In this document: positions 2,853-19,894 of the stretch, piece by piece
How positions within the stretch are numbered: position 1 is the first letter of the stretch
Layout: every line of letters starts with the position of its first letter
Virus record (IMG/VR): IMGVR_UViG_3300031566_007446
Span: 1-21,241 of that record
Reading direction: 5' to 3' (one strand)
From: a virus
Length of the DNA stretch: 21,241 bases
Notes under the pieces: model-generated
Told to the model about the DNA's origin: nothing
What the model saw: the letters and a program-made list of their open reading frames with translations, nothing else
Databases searched by the model: none
Made by a program: the position numbers and the translations under genes

Positions 2853-4040
2853 ATGGATAACGTTTTTAGTTTTTTAGAAGCACAGATGCGTACTAATTTA
2901 GAGTTGGACGCTGTAGAGGGTTTAATAGAGCGGGAGAGAAGTGGTTCTGACCGTCCCGGTCTACGAAAGAATATTTACCAAAACACTCTAAATTGGATTA
3001 AACAAGAGGCAAACGATACCTTGCAATTAGAATTCAATAAATTGCATAGGGCAGAACTAAATGAAGAAACATTGCAAACAGATATTACTACATTTACCAC
3101 TAGCTTGATGCCAGCGGTTCGGAGGATTTATAACCGGTTGATTGCTATGGATCTGGTATCTGTACAGCCAATGAATGGACCTACTGGGTTAATCCATTAC
3201 ATTGACCATATGTTTGGTACTAGTGGTGGTGGGGCTACTTCTGGGCAGCGGTTAGACAAATATCGCTATGACGACTATGCCAATAGCTCTGAGGGTGGTG
3301 ATATCCGAGAAGTAAATTTTAAGATCAAGGCAAAAACGATTACAGCGGTTACAAAGAAAATCCAGGGAAAATGGAGTATTGAAGCGGAACAAGATCTGAA
3401 ATCACAGCACAATATTAATCTTGAGGCTGAATTAATGGGTAAGATGGTTACTGAGATTGTACGGGAAACTGATGGACAGTTGATTGCTGATCTTGAGGGT
3501 GGAGTTGCTAATAACGTAAATTGGAATATGAATGGATACCGGGTAGCTGATGCTAGTACAGCAGAAAGAAAGGCCTATGATGAAACTCTTAAAGATGCGA
3601 TTATTGAAGCAAATAATGAAATTTACAAGTTGAAGTACATGAATGCTGGTTGGATTATCTGTGATGCTGATGCCTACCTACGGTTGCAGAAGTTAGAGGC
3701 TTATAATGTCGATCCACTTATTGTTAATAATGAAGGGTTCTTTGGTCGGCGGTATGTTGGAACCTTGAGTGCCGGTTCACTGATGCGGGTATATGTTGAT
3801 CCTGATTTCACCGCTAATAAGTTCCTTCTGGGGCTGAAGGGTAATACTTGGGATGTTGCAGTTGGTTACTACGCTCCTTATATTCCACTTTTCACCTCTT
3901 CCAAGTACATCCAGGGTGATGATTTTACCCAGTTCCTAAAAGGTGCCATGACTCGGTATGCCCATGGTATTATCCCTGAGGAGTACACTGCCAGTACCGT
4001 AAATAACGGATTAGCGTCTGTATCACTTACCTCTAGCTAG
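2853..4040 (+). CDS. Major capsid protein (T4 gp23-like, HK97 fold)
   Basis: This 395-residue protein is the main shell subunit. It resembles the T4 gp23 family: the stretch TTSLMPAVRRIYNRLIAMDL followed by VSVQPMNGPTGLIHYIDHMF corresponds to the conserved family segment that ends in QPMTGPTG. Later come strands with KIKAKTITAVTKKIQGKWSI, then AEQDLKSQHNINLEAELMGK, matching the family's sequence before the spine-helix region. It is shorter than T4 gp23 (521 aa) and lacks an obvious inserted domain. The N-terminal 70 residues are charged and helical, like a pre-sequence removed by the protease; LxE-type sites occur at Glu26 and Glu71. The protease-scaffold gene upstream and the connector genes beyond the island support the call. 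Confidence 0.9.
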   Translation: MDNVFSFLEAQMRTNLELDAVEGLIERERSGSDRPGLRKNIYQNTLNWIKQEANDTLQLEFNKLHRAELNEETLQTDITTFTTSLMPAVRRIYNRLIAMDLVSVQPMNGPTGLIHYIDHMFGTSGGGATSGQRLDKYRYDDYANSSEGGDIREVNFKIKAKTITAVTKKIQGKWSIEAEQDLKSQHNINLEAELMGKMVTEIVRETDGQLIADLEGGVANNVNWNMNGYRVADASTAERKAYDETLKDAIIEANNEIYKLKYMNAGWIICDADAYLRLQKLEAYNVDPLIVNNEGFFGRRYVGTLSAGSLMRVYVDPDFTANKFLLGLKGNTWDVAVGYYAPYIPLFTSSKYIQGDDFTQFLKGAMTRYAHGIIPEEYTASTVNNGLASVSLTSS

Positions 4041-4131: not shown

Positions 4132-5187
4132 ATGGAAATAAAGAAAACGTTTAACCTAAGGGTTAGTACATCTAAGATAGGACAAATCATTAAATCTTCA
4201 GAATCAAATTCCAGTATAAGAATTCATGAAGGCGGTATTTTTGACGCCAATACAATTTCCTCAGGTTCAGGTTATCTACATTTCACAAAACCAGTTAAAG
4301 ATATTTATGCTTGGCTACGTAAGAATTTTATACAAGAGTTCTTTTTAGAAAGAACTTTTTCTTTGGGTGATTTGCTGTTATTAATTCCTGTATACCGTGC
4401 TTTTGTTAGGGATGGGTTTAGGCCATATATTCGTACAAGAGGGCAATATGTGGAACTACTTTCCAAATTAGAGGTTTCTTGTGAATCTGTGGATGTACAT
4501 AAAACACCGGAAACTCCTGGTGTTTTCTTGGATTACGTAGTAGAGCGTGATCATACAGATCCAAAATTACAGAAAATACATAGAACAAAGATTTATCATG
4601 ATTTTATGGGAGTCCCTTACATAGAAAAGGAGTTAGATTGGGGATTTAAACTAGAGAATTTTCCTGAGGTTTCTTGGGATGATAAACCGTATATTATTTT
4701 CCAAGGAAGGGGTGCTGTAGATAGGCGTGGTTTAAGTACTACGGTGATTCAGGATTTGATCTATTTTATGAACCTAGAAGGGGTGCGAGTGCTCTATATT
4801 GGTGAATCTTTACCAATGTTAAAGGGAATTGATGACTTAACAAGATTTCAATTCATGAATTCAACTTTACCTGAACTGTTTAGTTGGATTGCAGGGGCTA
4901 AGATGTTGATTACTATGGATTCAAGTCCTTTATGGATAAGCCACTATACAAATACACCTACTGTAGCGATTTTAGGCCCCAGTAGACCAGAGGAGCGGTT
5001 ATCCTTACATCCTCTATACCCAGAGCAGGCAAATGCTATTAGGCTGAACACATGGATTAATTGTGAATCTTGTTTTGAGCAATCACAAAAATGTAATCAT
5101 ACATTTAAATGTTTAAAAAATGTTAATACTGATGTATTATATAAAGAATTGAGAAAAGAACTTATGAAATATTGGGAATTAGGTTAA
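4132..5187 (+). CDS. GT9-type glycosyltransferase (heptosyltransferase-like)
   Basis: This 351-residue protein has the two-Rossmann (GT-B) outline of the ADP-heptose:LPS heptosyltransferase family, GT9. A first nucleotide-fold strand and loop (FSLGDLLLLIPVYRAF, about 76-91) replaces the family's GDxxxxxP motif. The C-terminal half contains ISHYTNTPTVAILGPSRPEE (about 269-288), the family's donor-site region. The Cys cluster C-x2-C-x6-C-x5-C follows (about 311-328), seen in many GT9 proteins. About 70 residues at the N-terminus are extra and unassigned. An AAGGAG ribosome site lies before ATG 4132. It is the first gene of the island, and its 3' end overlaps the next gene as TAATG. The sugar donor and acceptor cannot be told from the sequence. 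Confidence 0.8.
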   Translation: MEIKKTFNLRVSTSKIGQIIKSSESNSSIRIHEGGIFDANTISSGSGYLHFTKPVKDIYAWLRKNFIQEFFLERTFSLGDLLLLIPVYRAFVRDGFRPYIRTRGQYVELLSKLEVSCESVDVHKTPETPGVFLDYVVERDHTDPKLQKIHRTKIYHDFMGVPYIEKELDWGFKLENFPEVSWDDKPYIIFQGRGAVDRRGLSTTVIQDLIYFMNLEGVRVLYIGESLPMLKGIDDLTRFQFMNSTLPELFSWIAGAKMLITMDSSPLWISHYTNTPTVAILGPSRPEERLSLHPLYPEQANAIRLNTWINCESCFEQSQKCNHTFKCLKNVNTDVLYKELRKELMKYWELG

Positions 5188-7106
5188 TGAAAATTGATGA
5201 TTATCCAGGCGGAAAACCACTTAGAGGTAGATTTACAAAACCGAAGGGTGCAAATCAGATCTATAGGGATAATTCTGGGAATTTATTGAAGATAATTCCA
5301 GGTGATTTTGTATTTGAGGAAGAGATTGAGAGGTTTAATATAGATCCAAAATATTTTATTCATCCAGATAGCCTTTTACACCAAGGGGCGTTTGAATTTG
5401 CTTATGAAAAGAAAGGTAACTTTTCCGTTGCTATTATTCGGGATATGAATGGACGTGGTGATATCTTAATGGCTTCAGTGATTGCTAAGGCACTAAAGTA
5501 CCAGTATGGTAAACAGGTGAAAGTATGGTTTTGTGTAAAACCTGGGTATGAAAAGATTCTAGAACATAATCCATTTATTGATAAAGTGTATACAAGTAGA
5601 AAAACAGTGGACCATTTGGTTCCAGATATTAAAATAAATGTCAATGATATGGAATTTAAGGTAGAGGTTAAGGTTTTTGAGAAATGTGGTGAAGTTCTAA
5701 AGAATAGGGCATCCATTTATTTAGAAAATATGGGGTTATTCTTAGAAAATAAAACTCCTGTATACAAGGTTACTGAGGAAGAGAAAAACTGGGCTAAAAA
5801 GGAGTTAAAGAGTTTAGGTATTTCTTCTGCATCTCCTGTAGTTGGATTACAGTACTTTGGATCTAACATTACCAGAACATACCCGCATATGGATAGGGTT
5901 AAGACTGGGCTACAGGAGCTTGGATATCAGACTGTTGCACTTGACCATAAGGAGAAAGATGGAAGTTATAGATGGGATGTTATAGAAACTGCTGCAATTA
6001 TTAATGAATTAGATTGTATTGTTTCTCCAAATAGTTACTTTTACCACTTGGCAGGAGCGTTGAAGAAAAGAGCAGTTGGTGTGTTTGGATCTTGTGATGG
6101 TGAAATATGGGTTCAAGATTATGAGAAAGTTACCGCTGTTCAGTTTGATACTTGTCCAGTGTACGGGAAAAGGAAATGCTGGTGGAAATTATCTTGTCTT
6201 CCGGGTGGAAGCTTAAGAGAGAAAGAATCCGTGAATACACCGCAATGTTTAAGCAATATTCCACCACAGTATATTGTGAATGAGGTTTCTAAGCACTTGA
6301 CAGTACCTAAAAAGATATTAATTGTGGTTCTGACCTATGAGCTTTTGCATCTTACAAAGCAGATGATTGATAGTATTAGAAGTTTTCATAATTATGATAT
6401 TGTAGTGCTGGATAATGCATCTACAGATGGTACAGTGGCTTGGTGTGAGGCTCAAGGAATTCCATATATTGTGGAAAGGCAAACGGTGGATTCTGCTTGG
6501 AACATGGGGTTACATATTGGGCTATCAGAGGGATATGATTATACTTTATTGTGCAATAATGATTGTATTCTAAGTGCCGGGTATATTGATACTTTGGTTG
6601 AGGTTGCAGAGAGAAGGAAGGCATGGGCTATTACTGGGAATGTAGTGAACAAGAAGGAAGGAAGTGAGATTAATTTTACCACTTTAACCAGGAATATTGA
6701 GATAGATCAAAACATTATGGTACCTGGGGATTATTCAGCCTTGTTACTTAGTAAAGAATGTATTGAAAAATTGGGTGGGTTTAAGTTCTTTGCCCCAAGA
6801 TATCAGTGTGATGAAGACCATTTATTGCGTCTTAGGTTGGCCAATCACCCATTAATAAAGGTGTATGCTACTACATTTTTCCATAAACATGGGGCTGTTG
6901 TTAAAAGGAATGCCGGATTTACAGAAGAGAGAAGGCAGAGGGAATGGGCTGCTGGAGTAGCAGCTTTTAAGAGGGAATGGAATTTGGATTTATATGGGGA
7001 TGGTAGGAAAGATTTGAATAGTCTGCAATTAGTGAAATCAAAGAACCCGGATTGGGAAGAGAAGCTATATAGGCCACTCTGTATTAAAGGGGTATATTCA
7101 AAATGA
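5187..7106 (+). CDS. Two-domain glycosyltransferase: GT9-like plus GT2-like
   Basis: The 639-residue protein appears to join two glycosyltransferases. Residues about 80-365 are GT9-like: RDMNGRGDILMASVIAKAL resembles the N-terminal GDxL motif, VVGLQYFGSN starts the second Rossmann half, CIVSPNSYFYHLAGALKKRA VGVFGSCDG-type donor-site sequence follows, and then several Cys before CLSNI. Residues about 374-600 are a GT-A domain of family GT2: ILIVVLTYE, then LDNASTDGT (about 408-416), the DxD-equivalent CNNDC (about 455-459), and a late acidic pair in YQCDEDHLLRLR. The first 75 residues are unassigned. The ATG at 5187 shares its A with the previous stop, so translation is coupled; a TTG at 5172 is also in frame but is less likely. 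It could add two successive sugars to one acceptor. Confidence 0.82.
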   Translation: MKIDDYPGGKPLRGRFTKPKGANQIYRDNSGNLLKIIPGDFVFEEEIERFNIDPKYFIHPDSLLHQGAFEFAYEKKGNFSVAIIRDMNGRGDILMASVIAKALKYQYGKQVKVWFCVKPGYEKILEHNPFIDKVYTSRKTVDHLVPDIKINVNDMEFKVEVKVFEKCGEVLKNRASIYLENMGLFLENKTPVYKVTEEEKNWAKKELKSLGISSASPVVGLQYFGSNITRTYPHMDRVKTGLQELGYQTVALDHKEKDGSYRWDVIETAAIINELDCIVSPNSYFYHLAGALKKRAVGVFGSCDGEIWVQDYEKVTAVQFDTCPVYGKRKCWWKLSCLPGGSLREKESVNTPQCLSNIPPQYIVNEVSKHLTVPKKILIVVLTYELLHLTKQMIDSIRSFHNYDIVVLDNASTDGTVAWCEAQGIPYIVERQTVDSAWNMGLHIGLSEGYDYTLLCNNDCILSAGYIDTLVEVAERRKAWAITGNVVNKKEGSEINFTTLTRNIEIDQNIMVPGDYSALLLSKECIEKLGGFKFFAPRYQCDEDHLLRLRLANHPLIKVYATTFFHKHGAVVKRNAGFTEERRQREWAAGVAAFKREWNLDLYGDGRKDLNSLQLVKSKNPDWEEKLYRPLCIKGVYSK

Positions 7107-7795
7107 CAAAGTATCGGCAGGATCATTTTGATGTGGAATATTATGAAGGATTTGCAAGAGGTGGATTTAGAGGATATACGTGGAAGAAGGTAAAGGGAGA
7201 GCAGGTAAAAAAGATTAACTTTATTAAGTGGCATTATCGTAGATTTAAGGTAGATACTGTTCTATTTGCAGCATGTGCTAAAGGATTTGAAGTACGGGCC
7301 GCTAGAGAGGGTGGTTATAAGGCATTTGGTTGTGATATGTCAGACTATGCTTTAGGACAAGCCAGTAAGGCCAGTAAGGCCATTAAACCATACTTAAAAC
7401 AGGCTGACATACGGGATTTGAGTATTTATAGGGAGAATGAGTTTGATCTTGTTTGTGCGTTTGATGTGATTCATATTATAGATCCAGAAACTAGGAAGTT
7501 AGCATATTCTGAGTTAAATAGAATAGCTAAAAAGGGTGTACTTATTCGTACTAGAGTTCTTCCTGCTGAATTTACCGAATGTGGTTATGACGGAACAGTG
7601 GATGGTGAGAAAATATTTAGAGAAACGGTTCAAAGTCCTATTGTAGAGATGGAAAAGTTAAATAAATTTAAAATGTTCCATATGGGTACCGGTGTTCGAT
7701 ATGTTGTATGGTATGCATTTGGTGATGAAAAATATTTTCCCTGTACTTTTGAAACTGAATTTTACAGGGGAATGGAGGTGGAAAATGATTCTTAG
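7103..7795 (+). CDS. SAM-dependent methyltransferase-like protein (class I)
   Basis: This 230-residue protein has the order of a class I methyltransferase. A strand and glycine-loop equivalent VLFAACAKG is at 53-61, an acidic residue ends strand two in FGCDMSDYAL (about 72-81), then QADIRDL, and FDLVCAFDVIHII (about 113-125) corresponds to motif IV. Motif I is unusual: the expected acidic residue is Phe and only one Gly remains, so SAM binding is plausible but not assured. The ATG overlaps the preceding TGA (ATGA). It lies between a glycosyltransferase and a sulfotransferase, which suggests methylation of a glycan or its precursor. An in-frame 9-base repeat near 7362-7380 gives ASKASKAIK. Confidence 0.7.
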   Translation: MTKYRQDHFDVEYYEGFARGGFRGYTWKKVKGEQVKKINFIKWHYRRFKVDTVLFAACAKGFEVRAAREGGYKAFGCDMSDYALGQASKASKAIKPYLKQADIRDLSIYRENEFDLVCAFDVIHIIDPETRKLAYSELNRIAKKGVLIRTRVLPAEFTECGYDGTVDGEKIFRETVQSPIVEMEKLNKFKMFHMGTGVRYVVWYAFGDEKYFPCTFETEFYRGMEVENDS

Positions 7796-8525
7796 TGATA
7801 ATGCTAAAAAATCTTTTAAAGTGTATGATGATGATTCCTTTATTGTATCTTATCCAAGGTCTGGACAAACATGGTTTAGAAGTCTTTTAGCTACTGTTAA
7901 ATGTGGGAAGGGGTGGCTAACTGATATACACGTAGATTCGGTCATTCCTGATTTTCGTAGAACAAGTAGGCTGGATAGAAAAAATTTGGGTAAAGGGATG
8001 CGTATATTTAAGACTCACGAATATGTAAATAGTAGGTATAAACGTATTCTATACTTGGTTAGAGATCCTAGAGCAGTAGCCTATAGTCTTTGGAACTGGC
8101 GTTGTAAGATGAACCCTAAAAGTAAATGGAAATATGAAGGACCATTTGATATAAAGTTTATTGAGGAGTTCTTAGCTGGTAAGATTTTCCCAGGTGCTTG
8201 GACAACCCATATTGAAGGTTGGTCAGAGCATGCAAAAAACCATGATGTATCCTTTGAGTGGCTATTCTACGAGGATCTTTTTAGAAGGACTAAGAAATTT
8301 CTTCACACTTCTTGTGTATTTTTAGGAATACCATGGAAAGAATATCTCCTTGAAGATGCGGTTAGGCAATTTCCAGCAGGAAAACCTACCGGATTTTTAG
8401 TAAACAGTATTAAACCACTCACTGCTTCTCCCAATAAATGGAGGGAAGCTTATACTGAGGAAATGTTAAACTTGATAAATTCAGAATTATGTGACCATTT
8501 AAAGGAACTTGGTTATGAAGTTTAA
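7785..8525 (+). CDS. PAPS-dependent sulfotransferase (first of two)
   Basis: This 246-residue enzyme should transfer sulfate from PAPS to a hydroxyl or amine. The 5'-phosphosulfate loop is textbook: SYPRSGQTWFRSLL (residues 22-35). The 3'-phosphate site is YLVRDPRAVAYSLWNW (about 90-105), with Arg and Ser in the expected places. The ATG at 7785 has GGAGG at 7774-7778, and the N-terminus then reaches the loop at the usual distance; a longer frame back to 7692 lies inside the previous gene and is rejected. The gene overlaps its upstream neighbour by 11 bases. With adjacent glycosyltransferases, the likely acceptor is a sugar. No PAPS synthesis gene is in the window, so the donor must come from the host or from elsewhere in the phage. 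Confidence 0.88.
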   Translation: MILSDNAKKSFKVYDDDSFIVSYPRSGQTWFRSLLATVKCGKGWLTDIHVDSVIPDFRRTSRLDRKNLGKGMRIFKTHEYVNSRYKRILYLVRDPRAVAYSLWNWRCKMNPKSKWKYEGPFDIKFIEEFLAGKIFPGAWTTHIEGWSEHAKNHDVSFEWLFYEDLFRRTKKFLHTSCVFLGIPWKEYLLEDAVRQFPAGKPTGFLVNSIKPLTASPNKWREAYTEEMLNLINSELCDHLKELGYEV

Positions 8526-9729
8526 TTATATTGTGATCATGACTGATGGGGCCAGATCTGATTTTGCTATGAACCCAAAAGTGATGCCAGTTACACATAA
8601 TTTTCTTAGGGAAAATGGTGGAATACTGTTCTCTAATGTATATTCTACTAGCACCTGGACCTTACCACCTCAAATGAGCTTATTTACCGGGCTCTTACCA
8701 ACAAATCATGGATTATCTGATATAACATACTCTAACAGGCGGCAAATCGTTCAAGCGGTGGATAAGGAGTTTTTTAAGGCTAAGAATGTACTGGAAAAGG
8801 ACTTTTTAGTAAACATTTTAAAAGGTCAGGGGTATACCACTAAAATCTGGAGTAATTATATTACCTATCAGTTCATGGCAAAAACCCATCACCATTATTT
8901 TGACAAAACCACCCTATGGGATTTCTTTTACTGGCAAACGGATAAAGTTATTAACGAACCAATTGAGAAGCCATTTTTTCATTTTATGTATGATGATGAT
9001 GGTGGACATGCCCCATATGGTGTTGGTATTAGGGATAGGCGGATACATTTTGATCAACAGCGAAGCAAAATGGTTACAGATACTGAAGCAAGGGCCAGAC
9101 CAGGGATATACACAGAGCCGGTGCTAAAATCCCTGGTGAGGAAACAACTTAGGCAGTATGATGCAGAGAAATTATCAAAGTTTTGGGAGTGGTTTAAAGA
9201 AAATAATCTTCATAAGGATACAGTCGTTTTTATTTTATCAGATCATGGTGAGTGTTATGCGGAGCATGGTTGGACTGGGCATGTGGCTAACTGTTATGAA
9301 CCAATAGTTAAGATTCCTGTCTTAATGTACCATCCAAACGCTAGAACACTGGTTAGGGATAAGGAAATTAGATCAATTGTGGATCTTGTTCCTACCATCT
9401 TGAATGAACCAGAGTTTGGTGATGGTAAATCAATGTATTCGAGTGATTCAGATAGGGTGGTATTTTTTGAATTTACGCGGAAAGCAGAACCAATTAAACG
9501 ATTACGAGGGCTTCCCATGAGTCGTTTATTTATTCGTGGATTACGCCATAAAAATTATAAATTTCTTTATCAGATACTTAGGGATGGTAGAGTACAGATA
9601 GAATTATATGATTTAGCAAAAAATCCAAGAGAAATATTCACAGAAAGATTAAAGGATAAGGATCTTTTACAGAAATATAGAGGGATGTTGCAGGAAAAAT
9701 ATGGTGTTTTATCAAGGAATTCACTATGA
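8515..9729 (+). CDS. Alkaline-phosphatase-superfamily enzyme (sulfatase-like fold) with Thr nucleophile position
   Basis: The 404-residue protein has the metal-site landmarks of the sulfatase / phosphoethanolamine transferase group. These are an early Asp in VIMTDGARSDF (Asp11), the nucleophile segment TWTLPPQMSLFTGLLPTNHG (47-66), LSDHGE (Asp243, His244), and EHGWTGH (His256). In formylglycine sulfatases the nucleophile motif is C/S-x-P-x-R; here the aligned residue is Thr49 (T-L-P-P-Q), as in transferases and hydrolases that form a phospho-Thr intermediate. There is no signal peptide or membrane segment, unlike EptA or LtaS. It could remove sulfate or phosphate, or move a phospho/phosphono group onto the glycan; the sequence does not decide. 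The start ATG 8515 overlaps the previous gene by 11 bases and has AAGGA upstream. Confidence 0.82.
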   Translation: MKFNYIVIMTDGARSDFAMNPKVMPVTHNFLRENGGILFSNVYSTSTWTLPPQMSLFTGLLPTNHGLSDITYSNRRQIVQAVDKEFFKAKNVLEKDFLVNILKGQGYTTKIWSNYITYQFMAKTHHHYFDKTTLWDFFYWQTDKVINEPIEKPFFHFMYDDDGGHAPYGVGIRDRRIHFDQQRSKMVTDTEARARPGIYTEPVLKSLVRKQLRQYDAEKLSKFWEWFKENNLHKDTVVFILSDHGECYAEHGWTGHVANCYEPIVKIPVLMYHPNARTLVRDKEIRSIVDLVPTILNEPEFGDGKSMYSSDSDRVVFFEFTRKAEPIKRLRGLPMSRLFIRGLRHKNYKFLYQILRDGRVQIELYDLAKNPREIFTERLKDKDLLQKYRGMLQEKYGVLSRNSL

Positions 9730-10829
9730 AAAAGGTAATTCTTGGATCAATTAGCCCTTGGTCTAAAACTAATGTTGAGATGTTTGATAGTGGATGGTTG
9801 AGCCACTGGGCTTGCCTAAATTTGAAATCTATCTATATGAAAAGGATTCTTGTTGAGGAGTATGGATATATCTCTGTACCTATATGGGATCATGATAGAT
9901 GGAGAGACACAAGAGGTAGTGGAGGGAGTGGATTAGGGCAAAGTGGGTTTGATGAACCTCCAAAATTTGATAAAGATGTTGATGTATTTGTGTTATTTGA
10001 GCAACCTCATAGAGTAAATATGGATGATATAGAAGAGTTAAAATCAGAACATCCAAATGCTATTTTTATACTTATCGTATTAGGTGATTACCGTTTTTGG
10101 AGGCGCCATTATAACCATCATAAACGGGTATTAGAGGTTTTTGATATTTTATTTGATTGGCAGTTTCATCACTATACTAATAAGGGTGATTTTAATACAG
10201 TATTTCCAGAATATTCAGATAAGCATGTGTTCTTTCCACACTGCTTTGTGCCGCACGAAAATTGGGTATCCATTAGGTACAATGAAACTCCTAAAATGAA
10301 ATGTTTATTCACTGGAAGAGTTGGAAATAGATATGACATAAGGAATCAGTTTTTAAAAAAGGTTTTGGTAGATAGAAAGTTAGAAGAAATTACTGATCTT
10401 TGTAAGGATTTTAGAGCAAAAAGATACTTAAAAAGGACTTGTTCCTATTATCATGACTTACCTTTTTTTAATACTAATCAGATTGTTAAGGATGATTATA
10501 TTAGCTTGATTAATGATCATTTTTGTTCTATTGTTGGTAGTACGTTTAGGAAACATTTATTGGGTAAATTTTTTGAGTATCCCGCTGGTGGTTCATTACT
10601 AATTGCAGATAGGTTTAAGGATCTTGACCAGGCCGGGTTTATTCCCGGTGTTCATTATGTGGAAATTACTATTAATAATGTAGCAGATGTTGTTAAGGAT
10701 GTTATAGAAAATTCAGATCAGTATGAGCATATAAGAAAGGCAGGTTTTGAATTTGTTAGGGCTAATCATAATATCAATGTGAGAATGGAATTTTTTAATA
10801 AGAAAATACAGGAGGTATTTAATGAGTAA
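9726..10829 (+). CDS. CgeB-like / GT1-type glycosyltransferase
   Basis: The 367-residue protein looks like a GT-B enzyme of the CgeB-like group. The C-terminal half has CLFTGRVGNRYDIRNQF, then FRKHLLGKFFEYPAGGSLLI (about 274-293), which carries the K-x-x-E-x-x-A-x-G donor-binding pattern. GVHYVEI and a C-terminal helix ending near ANHNINVRMEFF complete the family outline. The N-terminal half has a Rossmann-like start and a Gly/Ser-rich insert (GSGGSGLGQSG, about 63-73) that looks like a flexible loop. The ATG overlaps the upstream TGA (ATGA). The donor sugar is unknown. It is the third glycosyltransferase gene of the island and stands just before the methyltransferase-like and phosphonate genes. 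Confidence 0.75.
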   Translation: MKKVILGSISPWSKTNVEMFDSGWLSHWACLNLKSIYMKRILVEEYGYISVPIWDHDRWRDTRGSGGSGLGQSGFDEPPKFDKDVDVFVLFEQPHRVNMDDIEELKSEHPNAIFILIVLGDYRFWRRHYNHHKRVLEVFDILFDWQFHHYTNKGDFNTVFPEYSDKHVFFPHCFVPHENWVSIRYNETPKMKCLFTGRVGNRYDIRNQFLKKVLVDRKLEEITDLCKDFRAKRYLKRTCSYYHDLPFFNTNQIVKDDYISLINDHFCSIVGSTFRKHLLGKFFEYPAGGSLLIADRFKDLDQAGFIPGVHYVEITINNVADVVKDVIENSDQYEHIRKAGFEFVRANHNINVRMEFFNKKIQEVFNE

Positions 10830-11388
10830 GACAGTAACTGATATGCAATTATTTTTGCATCGATTAGAAAAAACTCGTCCAGATGAATTTCTAACTGAGT
10901 ATGTTCCTGATTTATTTAAGTATAAGTCAGTTCTTTACATTGGAATAGAGCGATATCGTATGGTATTTATTAAAAATTTTTTGCAGCATAACTATAAGAT
11001 AGATTTACTTGAAATCTGGAAACCACATGTAGATTATTATAGATTTATAAATAGTCAAGCTAAGTTTTTTAATAAGATTGTATGCGGTGATGTAAGTAAG
11101 GTTGAGGAGTATGATTTAGCAGAAAAATATGATGTAGTATTTTGGTTCCATGGTCCTGAACATGTTGAATTTGATGTTGCAACCTCTACAATAAATTTAT
11201 TAAAGAAGAAAACAGGGAAAGTCTTTGTTTGTGTATGCCCATTTGGAGTATCCCATAGCCCAGCAAGGGGTGGTAATAAATTTAATTTACACCGTTCTGC
11301 GTTATATCCCGATTATTTTTTAGATCTTGATATGGAGTCTAGGTGCGAAGGAGATAAAAGAATTAAATCTTGGTGGAGGCCAGAATGA
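10822..11388 (+). CDS. Methyltransferase-like Rossmann protein (divergent)
   Basis: The 188-residue protein has the strand order of a small class I methyltransferase: SVLYIGIERY (36-45) in the place of the SAM loop, an acidic residue ending strand two in IDLLEIWKP (about 57-65), VCGDVSKVEEYDL, and YDVVFWFHGPEHVEF (about 104-118) in the motif IV place, with later strand KVFVCVCPFG. The glycine-rich loop is degenerate (only one Gly), as in the other methyltransferase-like protein of this island, so it may use SAM weakly or be a non-catalytic relative. GGAGG precedes the ATG, which lies 8 bases inside the previous gene. The gene overlaps PEP mutase by ATGA. Confidence 0.6.
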   Translation: MSKTVTDMQLFLHRLEKTRPDEFLTEYVPDLFKYKSVLYIGIERYRMVFIKNFLQHNYKIDLLEIWKPHVDYYRFINSQAKFFNKIVCGDVSKVEEYDLAEKYDVVFWFHGPEHVEFDVATSTINLLKKKTGKVFVCVCPFGVSHSPARGGNKFNLHRSALYPDYFLDLDMESRCEGDKRIKSWWRPE

Positions 11389-12260
11389 ATAATCCTCAAA
11401 ATTTACATGAATTAGTACCCTGGCACCAAGCAGACGGTTCATTAATACGATTGGTTGGGTGTTGGGATGGGTTATCAGCAATTATGGTACAAGAGATGGG
11501 TTTCGAGGGGATATGGTCGAGTGGATTCTGTATATCTGCTTCCCATGGTTTACCGGATGCTAGTGTGTTAACCAAATCTGAGTTTTTAGAGCGTGCTAGG
11601 GAGATGAGAAATACAGCCCAGATGCCAATTTTACATGATATGGATACCGGATATGGTGGACCAGCTCATATTATTCAGTATATAAGGGAGTTTGCAGCGG
11701 CTGGTGTTAATGGTGTTTGTATTGAGGATAAACTTTTTCCAAAATCAAATAGTTTTGTGGGCGGTAATCAAGGATTAATGGGTATTGAAGAGTTTTGTAA
11801 AAAGATTATGGCTGCAAAAGAAGCCGTTGATGATATGTACATTGTGGCCAGAATTGAGGCATTTATAAGTGGTTTTGGTTTACAGGATGCTATTTATAGG
11901 GCAGATGCCTATGCGGAATCTGGGGCAGATGCTATTCTGATACATAGTAAGAGTAAAGATGGAAAAGATATATTAGAATTCTTGGATAAGTGGAAAAAAA
12001 GATGCCCAATTGTTATTGTTCCTACTACCTATGCCGGAGTTATACCAGAAGAGGAGATGAGGAATTATGGTGTAAATATTGTTATTTATGCAAATCAATT
12101 ACTTAGGGTAATGGTGGATCACGGATTTAAATATCTTAAAGAACTTGAAGGCTGGGGGGAAACTGATGTTCCAGGTTATGACTTAGAAGATATGAAAACA
12201 CTATTTGCCTTACAGGGAATGGATGTATTTAAAGAATTGGAGAAAAAGTATTCTATATAA
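11385..12260 (+). CDS. pepM: Phosphoenolpyruvate mutase (PEP phosphomutase, EC 5.4.2.9)
   Basis: It catalyses the C-P bond-forming rearrangement of PEP to phosphonopyruvate, the entry step of nearly all known phosphonate biosynthesis. In this 291-residue protein the active-site set is complete and falls at the same numbers as in the mussel enzyme: Trp44, Ser46, Asp58, Asp85 and Asp87 (HDMDTGYG), then the diagnostic EDKLFPKSNSF at 114-124 with Lys120, Asn122 and Ser123, and Arg156. The EDKxxxxxNS signature separates it from isocitrate lyase and methylisocitrate lyase relatives, which carry Cys in this loop. The ATG at 11385 overlaps the previous stop (ATGA) and has GGTGGAGG upstream. The equilibrium of this reaction strongly favours PEP, so it depends on the decarboxylase encoded next. 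Confidence 0.96.
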   Translation: MNNPQNLHELVPWHQADGSLIRLVGCWDGLSAIMVQEMGFEGIWSSGFCISASHGLPDASVLTKSEFLERAREMRNTAQMPILHDMDTGYGGPAHIIQYIREFAAAGVNGVCIEDKLFPKSNSFVGGNQGLMGIEEFCKKIMAAKEAVDDMYIVARIEAFISGFGLQDAIYRADAYAESGADAILIHSKSKDGKDILEFLDKWKKRCPIVIVPTTYAGVIPEEEMRNYGVNIVIYANQLLRVMVDHGFKYLKELEGWGETDVPGYDLEDMKTLFALQGMDVFKELEKKYSI

Positions 12261-12272
12261 GGAGAGTTTAAA

Positions 12273-12761
12273 ATGGTAGAAACATTACTGAAGTACGGAA
12301 TAACGTATGGTTCAGGAGTTCCTTGTTCTATCTTTAAGGATGAGCTTTTAGAGATTGAGAATGATCCAAGGTTTACCTATGTTCCAGCGGTAGATGAGGC
12401 TACCGCATTAGGTGTAGTAAACGGGTTTACTCTTGGTGGGAAGAGGGCGTTTTTATTAACCCAAAATTCAGCTGTTGGTAAGGTCGCAGATTTGATAGCG
12501 AGTTTTAACATTCCCTATGATGTTCCTTTGTTTTGGATTGTATCCCTGAGGGGTGTTAGTAATGATACTGAGGTTCATAAAAGGGCTATTCCGTTAACTC
12601 GGAGGATAATGGATGAACTTCATTTTATGCACTGGGATAATTACCAAATGGGATTTGATAATTTTCATGAGGCTTGTGAGATGTTTCTTGATGATACGGA
12701 AGAACTTAGGTTAGCTACTAGAAATATTTGTTATCAGATCTACAAAAAGGAAGCAAAATGA
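12273..12761 (+). CDS. Phosphonopyruvate decarboxylase, alpha (PYR-domain) subunit
   Basis: The 162-residue protein corresponds to the N-terminal, pyrimidine-binding half of ThDP-dependent phosphonopyruvate decarboxylase. It has GSGVPCSIFKDELLE (13-27, substrate region), AVDEATALGVVNGF with Glu42 as the probable catalytic glutamate that activates ThDP, LLTQNSAVGKVADLIASF, and then PLFWIVSLRGVSNDTEVHK, which matches the family's WRG segment. In Fom2/AepY-type enzymes this half is joined to the PP domain in one chain; here it is a separate gene, the way sulfopyruvate decarboxylase ComD/ComE is split. The neighbouring PEP mutase and AEP aminotransferase favour phosphonopyruvate as substrate. AAGGAG precedes ATG 12273, and the 3' end overlaps the beta gene by ATGA. 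Confidence 0.88.
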   Translation: MVETLLKYGITYGSGVPCSIFKDELLEIENDPRFTYVPAVDEATALGVVNGFTLGGKRAFLLTQNSAVGKVADLIASFNIPYDVPLFWIVSLRGVSNDTEVHKRAIPLTRRIMDELHFMHWDNYQMGFDNFHEACEMFLDDTEELRLATRNICYQIYKKEAK

Positions 12762-13291
12762 ATCCATTAGAGGAAACAAAAGATATAGTTAAATGGGTAT
12801 TTGAGGCCTATAGTGGAGGTATTTTTATATCTTCTTGCGGTCAGATTTCAAGATTCTGCTGGGAGTTGAGAGGTAAAGAAAAATTGATACCACTTACCGG
12901 AAGTATGGGAATGGCTTTTTCATTATCCATGGGATTAGCCATGGCTAAACCAGATGATAGAGTTATAGCTATTATGGGGGATGGTGATTTTTTAATGGGG
13001 TTAGGGGGTATTGCAAATTTACCGGAGCTAAACCTGTTTAATTTAGTACATATTGTAATAGCAAACTCTAAGTACCAAAGTACTGGTGGGCAGCGGTCAG
13101 TTTGGGATTTTTCAGTTATAGGGCAGTTAGTGCAGCCAATATATAGGAGTACTTATATTGATTGTATTGATTCTTGTAATAAACATAGTGAGATGGGTCC
13201 AAAGATAAAAATTTTTTATACTAAAAATTCTTCCCCAGTTCCTTCACGTATTCCAGATTCAGAGCTTTCTAGTACAGCGAGGTTAGTATAA
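12758..13291 (+). CDS. Phosphonopyruvate decarboxylase, beta (PP-domain) subunit
   Basis: The 177-residue protein is the diphosphate-binding half of the decarboxylase, which yields phosphonoacetaldehyde and CO2 and pulls the PEP mutase reaction forward. The ThDP motif is complete: GDG at 74-76, 26 residues, then Asn103, followed by SKYQSTGGQRS, very close to the family's DNEAHDSTGGQ. Upstream, TGSMGMAFSLSMGLAMAKPD (47-66) is the usual lead-in helix. The ATG at 12758 (ATGA with the alpha stop, AAGGAAG upstream) is chosen over an earlier in-frame TTG at 12728. Alpha plus beta total 339 residues, slightly shorter than the one-chain enzymes. Sulfopyruvate decarboxylase is the alternative, considered less likely because of the pathway neighbours. 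Confidence 0.9.
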   Translation: MNPLEETKDIVKWVFEAYSGGIFISSCGQISRFCWELRGKEKLIPLTGSMGMAFSLSMGLAMAKPDDRVIAIMGDGDFLMGLGGIANLPELNLFNLVHIVIANSKYQSTGGQRSVWDFSVIGQLVQPIYRSTYIDCIDSCNKHSEMGPKIKIFYTKNSSPVPSRIPDSELSSTARLV

Positions 13292-13707
13292 TGCCTAAGA
13301 GACTTATTTTTGTTACAGGGGTGTTTGATCTTTTTCACTGGGGGCATGTGGAATTTCTTAAGAAGGCAAAGTCCTATGGTGATTTTTTATTAGTTGGTGT
13401 TCACACGGATCTTGCAGTGAAAACATTCAAGGGTAAATGGTCAATTATGAATGAGTTGGAAAGGCTGAGGGTTGTGAAGGCTTGTGGAATAGTCGAGGTT
13501 GCTATTAGGATACCTTGTCAAACGGAACTTAAAGAGGAATTCTACGATGAGGTGTTCTTACAAGTTCAAGCAATCTCTGGAATTTCAGATGATTATTCCT
13601 TACCAAAACGTTTGGGGAAATTTAAGGAAATTCCATACCAAAAAGGGATTTCGACAACAGAAATTTTAAAAAGAATTAAATTAAGATTGGAGGAATACAA
13701 TGATTAG
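13291..13707 (+). CDS. HxGH cytidylyltransferase, probable CTP:2-aminoethylphosphonate cytidylyltransferase
   Basis: The 138-residue protein belongs to the TagD / phosphoethanolamine cytidylyltransferase fold. It has GVFDLFHWGHVEFLKKAK with His16 and His19 of the HxGH nucleotide motif, KGKWSIMNELERLRVVKAC, and the C-terminal signature GISTTEILKRI. The Arg that normally precedes GISTT in TagD (RTxGISTT) is replaced (YQKGISTT), which may reflect a different substrate. Being between the decarboxylase and AEP aminotransferase genes, it most likely makes CMP-AEP from CTP and AEP. The same fold is fused to PEP mutase in fosfomycin Fom1, where it activates hydroxyethylphosphonate. Alternatives are CMP-activated phosphonoacetaldehyde derivatives or phosphoethanolamine. 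The ATG shares its A with the previous stop. Confidence 0.87.
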   Translation: MPKRLIFVTGVFDLFHWGHVEFLKKAKSYGDFLLVGVHTDLAVKTFKGKWSIMNELERLRVVKACGIVEVAIRIPCQTELKEEFYDEVFLQVQAISGISDDYSLPKRLGKFKEIPYQKGISTTEILKRIKLRLEEYND

Positions 13708-14665
13708 TACAGCACCACTAAGAGTTAGACTAAATACCTCACATAGACATTCAGAATTTATCTATAAAATAAAGGTTGTAAGGGAGAAAATACTAGAATT
13801 TATTGGTCCTGGATGGGAGTTAGCCATATTTCCTTGTTCGGGTACTGGGGCTATACAGGCTATGATGCAAGGAATAAAGCATAATAGCAGTTGTGTAGTT
13901 CTATCAAATGGTACTTATGGTGATAGATTAGGGCATATAGCTATGCACTCACGATTTCAGTCTTCCTGGTGTGGGTATAGTTATTTATCATCTGTTCCAG
14001 AAGAACGGGAAGGGGTAATTGCTATGGTTCATGGTGAGACAAGCACCGGAAAATTAAATAATCTGGACCAAGTACTAGATTTTGCTAGTAAGTATGGTAA
14101 ATATGTGGTGGTAGACGCCGTAGCATCATTCCTAATGGATAAACTAGACTTTACCCATACCTCTTTAGGGGCCGTTGCATTTTCTTCCTGTAAAGGGCTT
14201 AGAGGGCTTCCGGGTACCGGTTTTGTGGCCTACCGCCCGGATATATTAGGAGGCCGTAGTTCCTTTTATTTTGCTCTATCCCCTAATAGTCATGATACGC
14301 CTACATGTACCCCAGTATCGGAGGTAATCGAAAAGTTATTTTATGATCTATTCCACTCTCATTTCTTAGAAACTTGGAGTAATAGGTATCCTAACCAAAA
14401 GGCAATTCTGAGGAAGGAATTAGAGTTATTAGGATTTGAGTTTGTTACCCCAAAGACTGAGGAGATGAATTGTCTTAGTGTTGTACAATTTAGAACCAAA
14501 GAGGAAAGGGAATCTTGTATACGGGAATTAGATACAAAAGGAATTGAATTATATAAGGGGGAAGGTAATACAGTTAAAATTTCTATTCTGAATTTATTTG
14601 AAGATACTGATTGTAGAAAACTTGATTTAGTTATTGATGCATTAAAAAAATGGAAGGAGCAGTAG
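13700..14665 (+). CDS. 2-aminoethylphosphonate aminotransferase-like (class V PLP enzyme)
   Basis: The 321-residue protein is a fold-type I, class V aminotransferase. It has CSGTGAIQAMMQG (PLP-phosphate loop), MVHGETSTGKLNN, VVVDAVASF with Asp139 (pairs with the PLP ring nitrogen), and FSSCKGLRGLPGTGFVAYRP with Lys165 as the Schiff-base lysine, very close to the PhnW/AepZ pattern. In this setting it would run in the biosynthetic direction, converting phosphonoacetaldehyde to 2-aminoethylphosphonate. It is shorter than typical PhnW (about 360 aa), mostly at the N-terminus, where the usual PGP motif is replaced by STAPLRVRLNTSHR. GGAGG precedes ATG 13700, 8 bases inside the cytidylyltransferase gene. 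No phosphonatase gene (PhnX) for breakdown is seen nearby. Confidence 0.9.
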   Translation: MISTAPLRVRLNTSHRHSEFIYKIKVVREKILEFIGPGWELAIFPCSGTGAIQAMMQGIKHNSSCVVLSNGTYGDRLGHIAMHSRFQSSWCGYSYLSSVPEEREGVIAMVHGETSTGKLNNLDQVLDFASKYGKYVVVDAVASFLMDKLDFTHTSLGAVAFSSCKGLRGLPGTGFVAYRPDILGGRSSFYFALSPNSHDTPTCTPVSEVIEKLFYDLFHSHFLETWSNRYPNQKAILRKELELLGFEFVTPKTEEMNCLSVVQFRTKEERESCIRELDTKGIELYKGEGNTVKISILNLFEDTDCRKLDLVIDALKKWKEQ

Positions 14666-14666
14666 G

Positions 14667-15461
14667 ATGCGGGGCTTAAACTTTTTGTTATCCTTTAGTA
14701 GGTCAGGATCTACTTTATTACATAGCCATTTGGGTACTCACCAGGATATTTTAACTGATGTTGGTGAGCCAAATTTTCTTTATCGGCTAGTGAGTGATCC
14801 ATATATTCAATATCAGTCTTATCAGAAGCAGTATAGGATGAAGCAAAAGGAAGTTCAGGATTTATATAATGCCGCTGTGAGAGAAATGGTTAATAAGTAT
14901 TATTCCACTTTAGCAGAAAGGTTAGGAAATACAGTAGTTTTATTAAAACATCCTTGGATCACTGAATATGCCCACCGCTTGGTTACTATGTTTCCCGAAT
15001 CCAAAATAATTTATTTAATCAGGCACCCGTATGACACTATTGCCTCTACCTATCATTTTACATTGATAAATGAAGTTGCAGAAAAAATGTTTAAAAATTT
15101 AGATGAAATTATGAGGTTATATGAACATGCAGTTGCTACTATGCAAGGTGCCGATGTTAGGGAACAAGAAAGAAAAGGTAATGTTAAGAGGATAAAATAT
15201 GAGGATTATATAAATAATACTCCTTCTATACTTAAGATGTTACTACGCTATTTAGATGTTTCGGCAGAAGATAACGTGGTAAAATTTATATATGATAAAG
15301 TACAGCAAAATGAGGGACATGGAGTTGGTTCCTCAATTTCCAAATCAAGAATTTTTAATCCTAGTGATAAGTGGAATACGGTGTTAAGTGAAGCACAGCG
15401 TAATCGGGTAAGGAAACGGTGTGGATGCTTTCTTGGATTATTTGGATATGGAGTGAAATAA
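14667..15461 (+). CDS. Sulfotransferase (second of two)
   Basis: The 264-residue protein has a short N-terminal PAPS loop LLSFSRSGSTLLHSHLGTH (7-25) and the 3'-phosphate motif IIYLIRHPYDTIASTYHF (Arg119, Ser127). Near the end FNPSDKWNTVLS provides the family's late xxKW segment. It matches the Sulfotransferase_3 group rather than the aryl-type sequence of the first sulfotransferase, so the two are not recent duplicates. ATG 14667 lies one base after the aminotransferase stop, with AAGGAGCAG upstream. The enzyme closes the island after the phosphonate genes; the likely acceptor is the same glycan, but that is inferred from position. Confidence 0.85.
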   Translation: MRGLNFLLSFSRSGSTLLHSHLGTHQDILTDVGEPNFLYRLVSDPYIQYQSYQKQYRMKQKEVQDLYNAAVREMVNKYYSTLAERLGNTVVLLKHPWITEYAHRLVTMFPESKIIYLIRHPYDTIASTYHFTLINEVAEKMFKNLDEIMRLYEHAVATMQGADVREQERKGNVKRIKYEDYINNTPSILKMLLRYLDVSAEDNVVKFIYDKVQQNEGHGVGSSISKSRIFNPSDKWNTVLSEAQRNRVRKRCGCFLGLFGYGVK

Positions 15462-18200: not shown

Positions 18201-19367
18201 ATGAGTAACTGTGCATTAAATTTTGCGTTTGCAAATGAGGAAGAGCTTTTTCTAATTAAGGAAGATACTTGTGGTGTTTTAAAGAAACCCACTGGGTCAA
18301 ATCGGGCTTATACAGTGGGACCAGCTGAGTTCCCACAGGAACAGGAATTTTTAGATGATGAACAAATACGGGCAACTGCCAGTAGGTTTTCACCCATTAA
18401 GGGGAGAAAAATGCCCGGAGAGTGGAGTTTTAATACTTATGTAAAACCATCCGGAACTCCTGGTACCGCTCCTGAGCATGATGTTCTATTTGAATGTGCT
18501 TTAGGTACAAAAACAATTAATGTTGGAACCAGTGTTGTATATACATTGGCTGATCAATTGGACTCTTTTTCTTTATGGATTAAAAAGGGTCATACTGTGT
18601 TTGCACTTAGAGGGTGTACTGTTCAACAACCTGAATTTGGAATTGAAGGAAATGCCATAGCTGGAATTAGTTGGTCTGGTAACTTTATGAACCGGGCGTA
18701 TGCTGGAACAGTGACAGCTACGGGAACCTATTCTGGCGGAGAGGCTACTATTACTCTACCCGGCGGTGCTGCTCAAAGATATACTGAGGGTATGTATATA
18801 AATGTTGGAGCCGATACAAACACAGGCGCCGGTTATCGGATTACCGGTGTAAATTATACAAATGACACTTTGGCAATTACTCCTGTTATTGCTGGAAATC
18901 CTGGGGTTACTCCACAGATTACTCCTTGGTTACCAACTGCTTCGGCAGAGGTAGGAGAGCCAGTTCATGGCAAAAATGGAATGGTAACTATTGGTGGGGA
19001 AGATACTATTGTTTTAAGCGCAAAAGTTACGTTAAACAATAACATTAAATATTACAGTGATGAAAAGAATAATCAGTGGACTGCCGAGAGATTTGGTAGA
19101 CCGGGAAAAAGAGAAGTAGATGGTGAGGTAGAGTTATACTTCTTAAAGCCTGGGGATGCTTATTTTTATAGGGCAGAATATCAAGTTTCAAACGCTCTTG
19201 TTATTCCGGCAGGGAATGTTTCAGGGTATATTATGCAAATTAGTATTCCATATGCGGAATATAGAACTCCTACTATCTCTGGAGATGAGGAATTTGTACA
19301 GAATGTGCCATTTATTGGTAGATGTTCAGCAACGTTAAATGATGAATTAGCGATTACATTTTTGTAA
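18201..19367 (+). CDS. Major tail protein (tail tube), long non-contractile tail type
   Basis: The 388-residue protein is beta-rich and has the layout of siphovirus tail tube proteins. The strand PGEWSFNTYVKPSGTPGTAP (about 72-91) leads into HDVLFECALG (92-101) and SFSLWIKKGHTVFALRGCTV, and the C-terminal half has ITFL at the end of a final strand. A segment at about 168-252 (TVTATGTYSGGEATITLPGG and following, Gly/Thr rich) looks like an inserted beta domain, perhaps exposed on the tube surface. GAGGTAATAAA precedes ATG 18201. No contractile sheath gene is found next to it. A strong hairpin follows, as after the capsid gene. Confidence 0.78.
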   Translation: MSNCALNFAFANEEELFLIKEDTCGVLKKPTGSNRAYTVGPAEFPQEQEFLDDEQIRATASRFSPIKGRKMPGEWSFNTYVKPSGTPGTAPEHDVLFECALGTKTINVGTSVVYTLADQLDSFSLWIKKGHTVFALRGCTVQQPEFGIEGNAIAGISWSGNFMNRAYAGTVTATGTYSGGEATITLPGGAAQRYTEGMYINVGADTNTGAGYRITGVNYTNDTLAITPVIAGNPGVTPQITPWLPTASAEVGEPVHGKNGMVTIGGEDTIVLSAKVTLNNNIKYYSDEKNNQWTAERFGRPGKREVDGEVELYFLKPGDAYFYRAEYQVSNALVIPAGNVSGYIMQISIPYAEYRTPTISGDEEFVQNVPFIGRCSATLNDELAITFL

Positions 19368-19429: not shown

Positions 19430-19894
19430 ATGGACACAAAAGAATTAATTGGTGTTATCGGTAAGGCCGGTAAGGTTCAAAGAACAAATGAATTTGAATG
19501 TCCCGAGATTCCTGGATTTTGGGTTACAATTGCGTATGCTTCCAAATTTGTGGTCAACCAGATTAGAGAAGAATCAGAGGAGGTTCGTAGTAATGCAAGA
19601 ACCAAGGAAAGAGAAGTACATTATAATGAAGATAAAATCAGGGACCAATACTCTAAACGGATTATCATAGGTTGGAGGGGTTTGACAGTCGAAGCTTTAA
19701 AAGGATTGTTACCTGGCTTAGAGTCTTCCGATGCGGATAAGAATAAAAATGTTGAGTTTTCTTCGGCAATTGCTAAAGCACTAATGGACAATTCTTTAGA
19801 GTTTGAGGATTGGGTGTTTATTGTATGCCAAACTCTAAGAAACTTTAAACATGTTGTGGATAAAAAAACCGAGGAATTTGAAAATTTAGATTAG
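19430..19894 (+). CDS. Tail assembly chaperone G (zero-frame product)
   Basis: The 154-residue protein takes the place of lambda gpG, between the tail tube and tape measure genes. It starts after a good AGGAGAAAG site, has a beta-like N-terminus (FECPEIPGFWVTIAYASKF) and then helices (EEVRSNARTKEREVHYNEDK; LEFEDWVFIVCQTLRN). Ribosomes that stay in frame end at TAG 19892-19894; those that slip at 19882-19888 read on into the next frame. The chaperone keeps the tape measure protein extended while the tube polymerises on it and is not itself part of the finished tail. The assignment rests on position plus the frameshift signal. Confidence 0.8.
   Translation: MDTKELIGVIGKAGKVQRTNEFECPEIPGFWVTIAYASKFVVNQIREESEEVRSNARTKEREVHYNEDKIRDQYSKRIIIGWRGLTVEALKGLLPGLESSDADKNKNVEFSSAIAKALMDNSLEFEDWVFIVCQTLRNFKHVVDKKTEEFENLD
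19882..19888 (+). promoter_or_regulatory. Programmed -1 frameshift site A AAT TTA
   Basis: The heptamer AAATTTA is in phase with the zero frame (codons AAT 19883-19885 and TTA 19886-19888), the canonical X XXY YYZ form, and is the same heptamer as Rous sarcoma virus gag-pol. The -1 frame is closed by TGA at 19879-19881 and opens exactly at the heptamer, then stays open to 20337. Six bases downstream, TGGCGAAC (19895-19902) can pair with GTTCGCCG (19952-19959, one U-G pair), a candidate stimulating stem with a 49-base loop. Confidence 0.82.

Follow-up and report, generated by a model that had tools for sequence, protein, structure and literature searches.

A predicted phosphonate biosynthesis cassette among the late genes of a tailed phage

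A linear viral fragment of 21,241 bases, which is the whole of IMG/VR record IMGVR_UViG_3300031566_007446 and is called the window below, carries five consecutive genes that together predict a pathway for making carbon-phosphorus (C-P) bonds. They resemble phosphoenolpyruvate (PEP) mutase (PepM), the two halves of a thiamine diphosphate (ThDP)-dependent phosphonopyruvate decarboxylase (Ppd), a cytidylyltransferase and a PhnW-like 2-aminoethylphosphonate (AEP) transaminase, and they lie between the capsid and tail genes of a phage. We think it probable that this tailed phage encodes its own phosphonate pathway and uses its product, AEP activated with cytidine monophosphate (CMP-AEP), to decorate a glycan of the virion or of the infected cell.

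The five genes and the predicted pathway

A first-pass annotation of the DNA had placed five consecutive genes at 11385-14665. All five open reading frames (ORFs) are indeed present there, uninterrupted and on the + strand, with intergenic distances of -8 to +12 nt and a purine-rich, ribosome-site-like stretch upstream of every start, an arrangement read as translational coupling.

11385-12260, + strand: PepM, 291 amino acids (PF13714, 1.3e-56; PDB 5unc, PEP phosphomutase, 7.1e-66)
12273-12761, + strand: Ppd-alpha (TIGR03845, 2.2e-18; TIGR03297, 2.6e-17; PDB 9iz3_A, PPD alpha, 1e-17)
12758-13291, + strand: Ppd-beta, ThDP-binding (TPP_enzyme_C, 1.6e-15; PDB 9iz3_B, PPD beta, 5e-18)
13291-13707, + strand: HxGH cytidylyltransferase, predicted AEP cytidylyltransferase (CTP_transf_like, 6.7e-12; PDB 3elb, 1.7e-30)
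13700-14665, + strand: PhnW-like class-V aminotransferase, predicted AEP transaminase (TIGR03301, 2.4e-29; Aminotran_5, 2e-12)

In the proposed order PepM would convert PEP to phosphonopyruvate, and the ThDP enzyme formed by Ppd-alpha and Ppd-beta would decarboxylate it to phosphonoacetaldehyde. The transaminase would turn the aldehyde into AEP, which the cytidylyltransferase would activate as CMP-AEP. The same series of steps had been read from the genes at first pass and stands as a prediction, in which AEP rather than another aminated phosphonate is the presumed product and CMP the presumed activating group. CMP-AEP would then serve as donor for a glycan that the adjoining glycosyltransferases, methyltransferase and sulfotransferases make, so that the virion or, less likely, the infected cell surface would be decorated with phosphonate and possibly also with sulfate.

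PepM reaches 192.3 bits against the Pfam PEP_mutase domain (cut-off 31.5), and in the PDB solved PEP phosphomutases outrank phosphonopyruvate hydrolase among its matches. TIGR02320 is likewise its top NCBIfam match, followed by phosphonopyruvate hydrolase at 191 bits, with a score of 259.8 bits that lies under the equivalog cut-off of 319.55. The protein has W44, S46, D58, D85, D87, E114, K120, N122, S123, R156, E158 and H187, and its EDKLFPKSNSF agrees with the EDKxxxxxNS motif that, with the catalytic set, discriminates PepM within its family. The motif and full active-site set named in the first-pass annotation are thus kept in the alignment, where a loss of catalytic residues had been looked for. 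Twelve other PepMs, from phages and bacteria, have identical active-site residues, and at the sixteen positions compared variation occurs only at 45, 47 and, in Vibrio phage Va2, 188. We call the protein PepM-like, with a mutase activity predicted from its residues. In a phage protein of contig L107 (7957-9213) the PepM part departs from the nearly universal EDK with EDN, the remaining motif being intact.

The decarboxylase is divided over two genes that hold both ThDP half-domains. As the first reading had it, Ppd-beta has the GDG-26-N motif. The two halves match the alpha and the beta chain, respectively, of a solved structure named as phosphonopyruvate decarboxylase. The preferred start of Ppd-beta is ATG 12758, in an ATGA overlap with the Ppd-alpha stop; the protein matches the NCBIfam model Ppyr-DeCO2ase at 5.8e-23 and diverges in its final 40 residues. 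In Ppd-alpha the activating Glu42 is invariant among phage homologues. With TIGR03297 the halves score 62.9 and 81.5 bits, both short of its equivalog cut-off of 312.5; the model describes a fused 360-residue decarboxylase. In L107 (9564-10784) Ppd-beta stands in one frame with an upstream sequence like an HNH homing endonuclease, and several further ORFs of the contig resemble this endonuclease-like one.

The cytidylyltransferase has the expected HxGH motif as FHWGH, together with KGISTTE of GISTT type, and is homologous to a domain fused with or adjoining PepM in other phages. Its closest PDB relative is 3elb, an ethanolamine-phosphate cytidylyltransferase, the substrate of which is the phosphate analogue of AEP. 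This likeness is no more than suggestive of an enzyme that would use cytidine triphosphate and AEP.

The transaminase keeps Lys165, the pyridoxal phosphate lysine already named at first pass, as well as Asp139 and Arg16. By sequence its best PDB relative is PntC-AEPT.

A glycan module between capsid and tail genes

The cassette belongs to an 11 kb module on a single strand, whose genes mostly overlap. Ribosome-site-like purine runs precede almost all starts, and 2 terminator-like sites occur in it, fewer than the mean of 7.9 for shuffled sequence. The module runs from two glycosyltransferase genes through a methyltransferase, a sulfotransferase, a sulfatase-like protein, a further glycosyltransferase and an unassigned protein to the five cassette genes and a second sulfotransferase. 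Capsid and tail genes had been said to flank the five genes on the same strand, and they do: PHROG 207, PHROG 138 and Gp23 matches lie upstream, Phage_tube_2 and PHROG 313 matches downstream.

1435-2832, + strand: head maturation protease, flank (PHROG 207, 6.5e-23)
2853-4040, + strand: T4-type major capsid protein, flank (PHROG 138, 8.3e-47; Gp23 PF07068, 2.0e-38)
4132-7106, + strand: two glycosyltransferase genes, GT9-like and GT9-like plus GT2 (PF01075, weak: below cut-off in the first gene, just above in the second; PF00535, 2.8e-09)
7103-7795, + strand: S-adenosylmethionine methyltransferase (PF08241, 9.3e-11)
7785-8525, + strand: sulfotransferase (Sulfotransfer_1, 1.7e-25; ORF opens at 7692, ATG at 7785)
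8509-9729, + strand: alkaline-phosphatase-superfamily, sulfatase-like protein (PF00884, 8.7e-23)
9726-10829, + strand: glycosyltransferase (PF13524, 1.8e-07)
10822-11388, + strand: unassigned protein overlapping the PepM start (no match in a Pfam scan, no convincing relative in a PDB comparison)
14667-15461, + strand: sulfotransferase directly 3' of the cassette (Sulfotransfer_3, 5.8e-23)
18201-19367, + strand: tail tube protein, flank (PF18906, Phage_tube_2, 5.9e-14)
19430-19894, + strand: tail assembly chaperone, flank (PHROG 313, 1.3e-08)

Recurrence in other viral genomes

Pattern and alignment scans of IMG/VR for PepM found 35 further viral contigs; with the window, their PepMs form 32 clusters at 90% identity. 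Scored with custom hidden Markov models built from the sequences of this analysis, 29 of the 35 combine the mutase and both parts of the decarboxylase with a nucleotidyltransferase and either a reductase or a transaminase. An iron-dependent alcohol dehydrogenase is present in 26 of these 29, for which a 2-hydroxyethylphosphonate route is therefore predicted. A PhnW-type transaminase, and with it a predicted aminoethyl route, is found in the window and in contigs G001, G002 and L145, the last with its PepM frame split into two pieces.

Phage structural genes accompany several of these cassettes. In G002 a capsid protease and the major capsid protein adjoin the cassette; G031 and G036 carry major capsid protein and portal, G004, G016 and G028 terminase, and G007, G023, G025 and L003 sheath, the cassette of L003 being placed after the tail sheath and tube genes. 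G003 has capsid, terminase and tape measure genes and uses genetic code 25. This 84 kb phage (L002, L011 and L128 in our numbering), whose genes read TGA as glycine, has a cassette of nucleotidyltransferase, reductase, PepM, split Ppd and a gene like CDP-glycerol phosphotransferase, and also a GroEL-like chaperonin, recognised by eye, at L114 10171-11772. A broken frame suspected in L002 was rejected, as it is intact under code 25.

It is quite possible, and we advance it tentatively, that several tailed-phage lineages, one of them with code 25, have repeatedly recruited complete C-P pathways and coat their virions by way of CMP-phosphonates.

Of 50,697 deposited phages, Vibrio phage Va2 is the only one to have a Ppd-like protein besides a PepM, if two mislabelled records are disregarded. 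These two, MT836947 and MT837901 (L006 and L007; 'Bacteriophage sp.', human faecal), both carry phosphonate genes and were rejected as phages because their genes read as bacterial loci, that of MT836947 being of surface-polysaccharide type. Apparent PepM matches in Acinetobacter phages were set aside as annotated methylisocitrate lyases, and L100-L104 and L106 were not counted as cassettes since they have a PhnW-like transaminase only (L100 and L106, when checked, had no PepM). In L100-L103 this transaminase stands among sugar-nucleotide and glycosyltransferase genes.

Sulfotransferase genes accompany phosphonate genes in the window (7785-8525 and 14667-15461), L107 (4008-5905), L116 (2808-3563) and L145 (2001-5475); the combination is also found in G001. 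It suggests decorations that are sulfated as well as phosphonylated. Apart from the cassettes, a 1066-residue ORF at L110 4452-7652 encodes a phage DNA polymerase fused to a DNA modification domain of Mom-like type.

Evolution of the phage PepMs

A tree of 72 PepMs requires four or more changes at supported branches to account for the phage sequences. A larger, quicker tree gathers 27 of 32 phage PepMs in one clade, with one bacterial sequence inside, and leaves the window, G001, G003 and the G002/L003 pair outside it, forcing at least three changes. A single origin of all phage PepMs is thus not supported; they were likely acquired several times, to judge from these trees. The window PepM sits on a long branch, and its exact neighbours are unsure.

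The transferase and the destination of the phosphonate

Activation as a CMP ester is sensible if a transferase uses it. Proteins of the LicD family perform CDP-choline-dependent phosphocholine transfer, and in bacteria they act on cell-surface glycans. Genes of LicD type are neighbours of PepM in 16 of the 36 viral contigs, whereas 220 kb of other phage DNA, a small control drawn partly from the same genomes, contains none. In one phage cassette a single ORF (L125 10357-11445) encodes a fusion of LicD with an HxGH cytidylyltransferase domain, and genes like CDP-glycerol phosphotransferase stand directly upstream of the cassette in G003 (L128), L129 and L131.

Several observations weigh against a working pathway that ends on the virion. 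A scan of the window genes, on a 21 kb fragment, revealed no LicD, CDP-glycerol phosphotransferase or CDP-alcohol phosphatidyltransferase. The transferase of this phage may lie outside the fragment, or its role may be filled by the sulfatase-superfamily protein at 8509-9729, because in each of three bacterial loci (L023, L042 and L092) a homologue of that protein is encoded no more than 6 kb from PepM; an enzyme of phosphonate or phosphate esters is a possible function for it. In some phages, such as G031, the cassette does not adjoin capsid genes, and since its position varies, a virion destination would not be general. None of the five cassette proteins reaches its respective NCBIfam equivalog cut-off, so the enzyme calls are based on motifs, fold and gene neighbourhood and not on orthology. 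The transaminase scores 102.8 bits against the TIGR03301 cut-off of 360.8, has Lys in place of a near-invariant C-terminal Arg, is short at its N-terminus and is just 21-27% identical to PhnW-type proteins of other loci. Its AlphaFold2 model (pLDDT 81) has 9kka, 7e7g, 1m32 (PhnW) and 6pd1 (PntC) as top PDB folds, a supportive but not independent result, since the underlying alignment consisted of PhnW-like rows and is biased to a PhnW answer. The first-pass call of an AEP aminotransferase is retained on this basis, for a divergent protein that is closest to PhnW and PntC in its model.

One alternative is that the pathway alters surface structures of the infected host such as capsule or lipopolysaccharide, and serves superinfection exclusion or lysogenic conversion instead of the virion. 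Bacterial phosphonate genes often stand beside cell-surface genes (PMC8931226). The gut bacterial locus L006, which has PhnW, a cytidylyltransferase-PepM fusion, Ppd and a gene whose C-terminal half, judged by eye, is like CDP-glycerol phosphotransferase, also fits a surface role, as does the action of LicD on bacterial surface glycans. However, the module of the window and the late structural genes around it form one run on a single strand, a place in which genes for early modification of the host would not be expected; the module of G002 adjoins protease and capsid genes, and that of L003 follows genes for tail sheath and tube. A position among late genes speaks more for decoration of the virion, and we regard modification of the host surface as unlikely.

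The low equivalog scores and the aberrant transaminase would also suit enzymes that have decayed or been repurposed, so that AEP is no longer made, the transaminase acting on another aldehyde and the cytidylyltransferase on a sugar phosphate. Against this, none of the five frames is interrupted, PepM retains its full set of catalytic residues, and enzymes for phosphonate degradation were not recognised. All steps are moreover encoded side by side among genes that fit the pathway, as they are in other phages, and we consider such decay improbable. Still more doubtful is a role in auxiliary metabolism, in which the genes would serve to store phosphorus or to make a free phosphonate, for example an antimicrobial, released at lysis. 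Phosphonate natural-product clusters do have these core enzymes, and the divided decarboxylase is like RhiEF of rhizocticin biosynthesis, but the nucleotidyl activation, the LicD or CDP-glycerol-phosphotransferase partners across phages and the dense glycosyltransferase and sulfotransferase surroundings speak for conjugation.

That the cassette belongs to the phage, as the first-pass annotation had held against host contamination, is borne out by its composition as well as by its position. Its GC content is 0.36-0.38, compared with 0.37-0.41 in structural genes (0.37 in neck and tail genes), and codon use of the two sets correlates at 0.94. The nearest PepM found, on a Pelagibacteraceae single-cell contig, is 49-51% identical, and there is thus no sign of recent insertion from anything sampled. 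Single-sequence scans of IMG/VR (with PepM, major capsid protein and cytidylyltransferase) and of genome contigs (with PepM) gave no close relatives. A bacterial surface-polysaccharide island fused to phage DNA by contamination or chimeric assembly, which the single linear fragment and the want of a near-identical contig might suggest, is extremely improbable. The cassette is enclosed by phage genes, its own genes overlap, and it agrees with the structural genes in composition and codon use. Cassettes with a like logic occur in the 35 other viral contigs, some with terminase, portal, capsid or sheath genes, so that the absence from related phages which the first-pass annotation had named as a sign of a chimera was not observed. 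One related cassette, with PepMs more than 90% identical to each other, was assembled in three related samples (L132, L133 and L147).

Relation to known systems

Phosphonate biosynthesis is known from cells. In open-access full text, a scope that largely excludes subscription journals and preprint servers, we found no report of phage-encoded phosphonate biosynthesis, in line with the first-pass statement that no characterised phage is known to synthesize C-P bonds. Viral phosphorus genes reported in that literature concern degradation and phosphate uptake, and a 2026 study (PMC13188868) describes phage genes for degradation, phnJ among them, and not for biosynthesis.

The isolated Vibrio phage Va2 (MW073017) comes nearest among deposited phages. 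Its PEP mutase, annotated without comment, has conserved PepM residues, and a Ppd-like ThDP enzyme lies a few genes away; the phage is not named in any paper of the same literature. Unlike those of the window, its genes adjoin ribonucleotide reductase rather than capsid genes, and a transaminase and a cytidylyltransferase were not recognised there. Sets of phage genes for glycan decoration and auxiliary metabolism likewise place glycosyltransferases and a methyltransferase among late genes, whereas C-P bond building, as predicted in the window, is described for none of them in that literature.

If the proposal is true, phage virions would bear phosphonate-containing and sometimes sulfated glycans, and viruses would be a source of phosphonate in the environment. 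A recurrent C-P pathway in phages would extend the chemistry of virions or host surfaces by a new class and might offer an escape from receptors or defences.

Among cellular systems, the heteromeric phosphonopyruvate decarboxylase RhiEF of rhizocticin biosynthesis, solved as PDB 9iz3 and 9iz4 (PMC12141560), has separate alpha and beta subunits like the Ppd of the window, which matches it over the conserved parts. The window differs in its phage setting, in the divergent C-terminal part of its beta subunit and in that no rhizocticin-type peptide genes were seen in it. Bacterial PepM-Ppd-PhnW loci with a cytidylyltransferase (gut L006; PntC-AEPT, 6pd1) have the same enzyme steps to CMP-AEP. In the window, by contrast, the set is carried by a phage between capsid and tail genes, the cytidylyltransferase is a stand-alone HxGH protein of ethanolamine-phosphate type, and the decarboxylase occupies two genes. 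The enzymes are thus of known kinds, while their ownership by a phage, their combination with sulfotransferases and their recurrence among viruses appear to be new.

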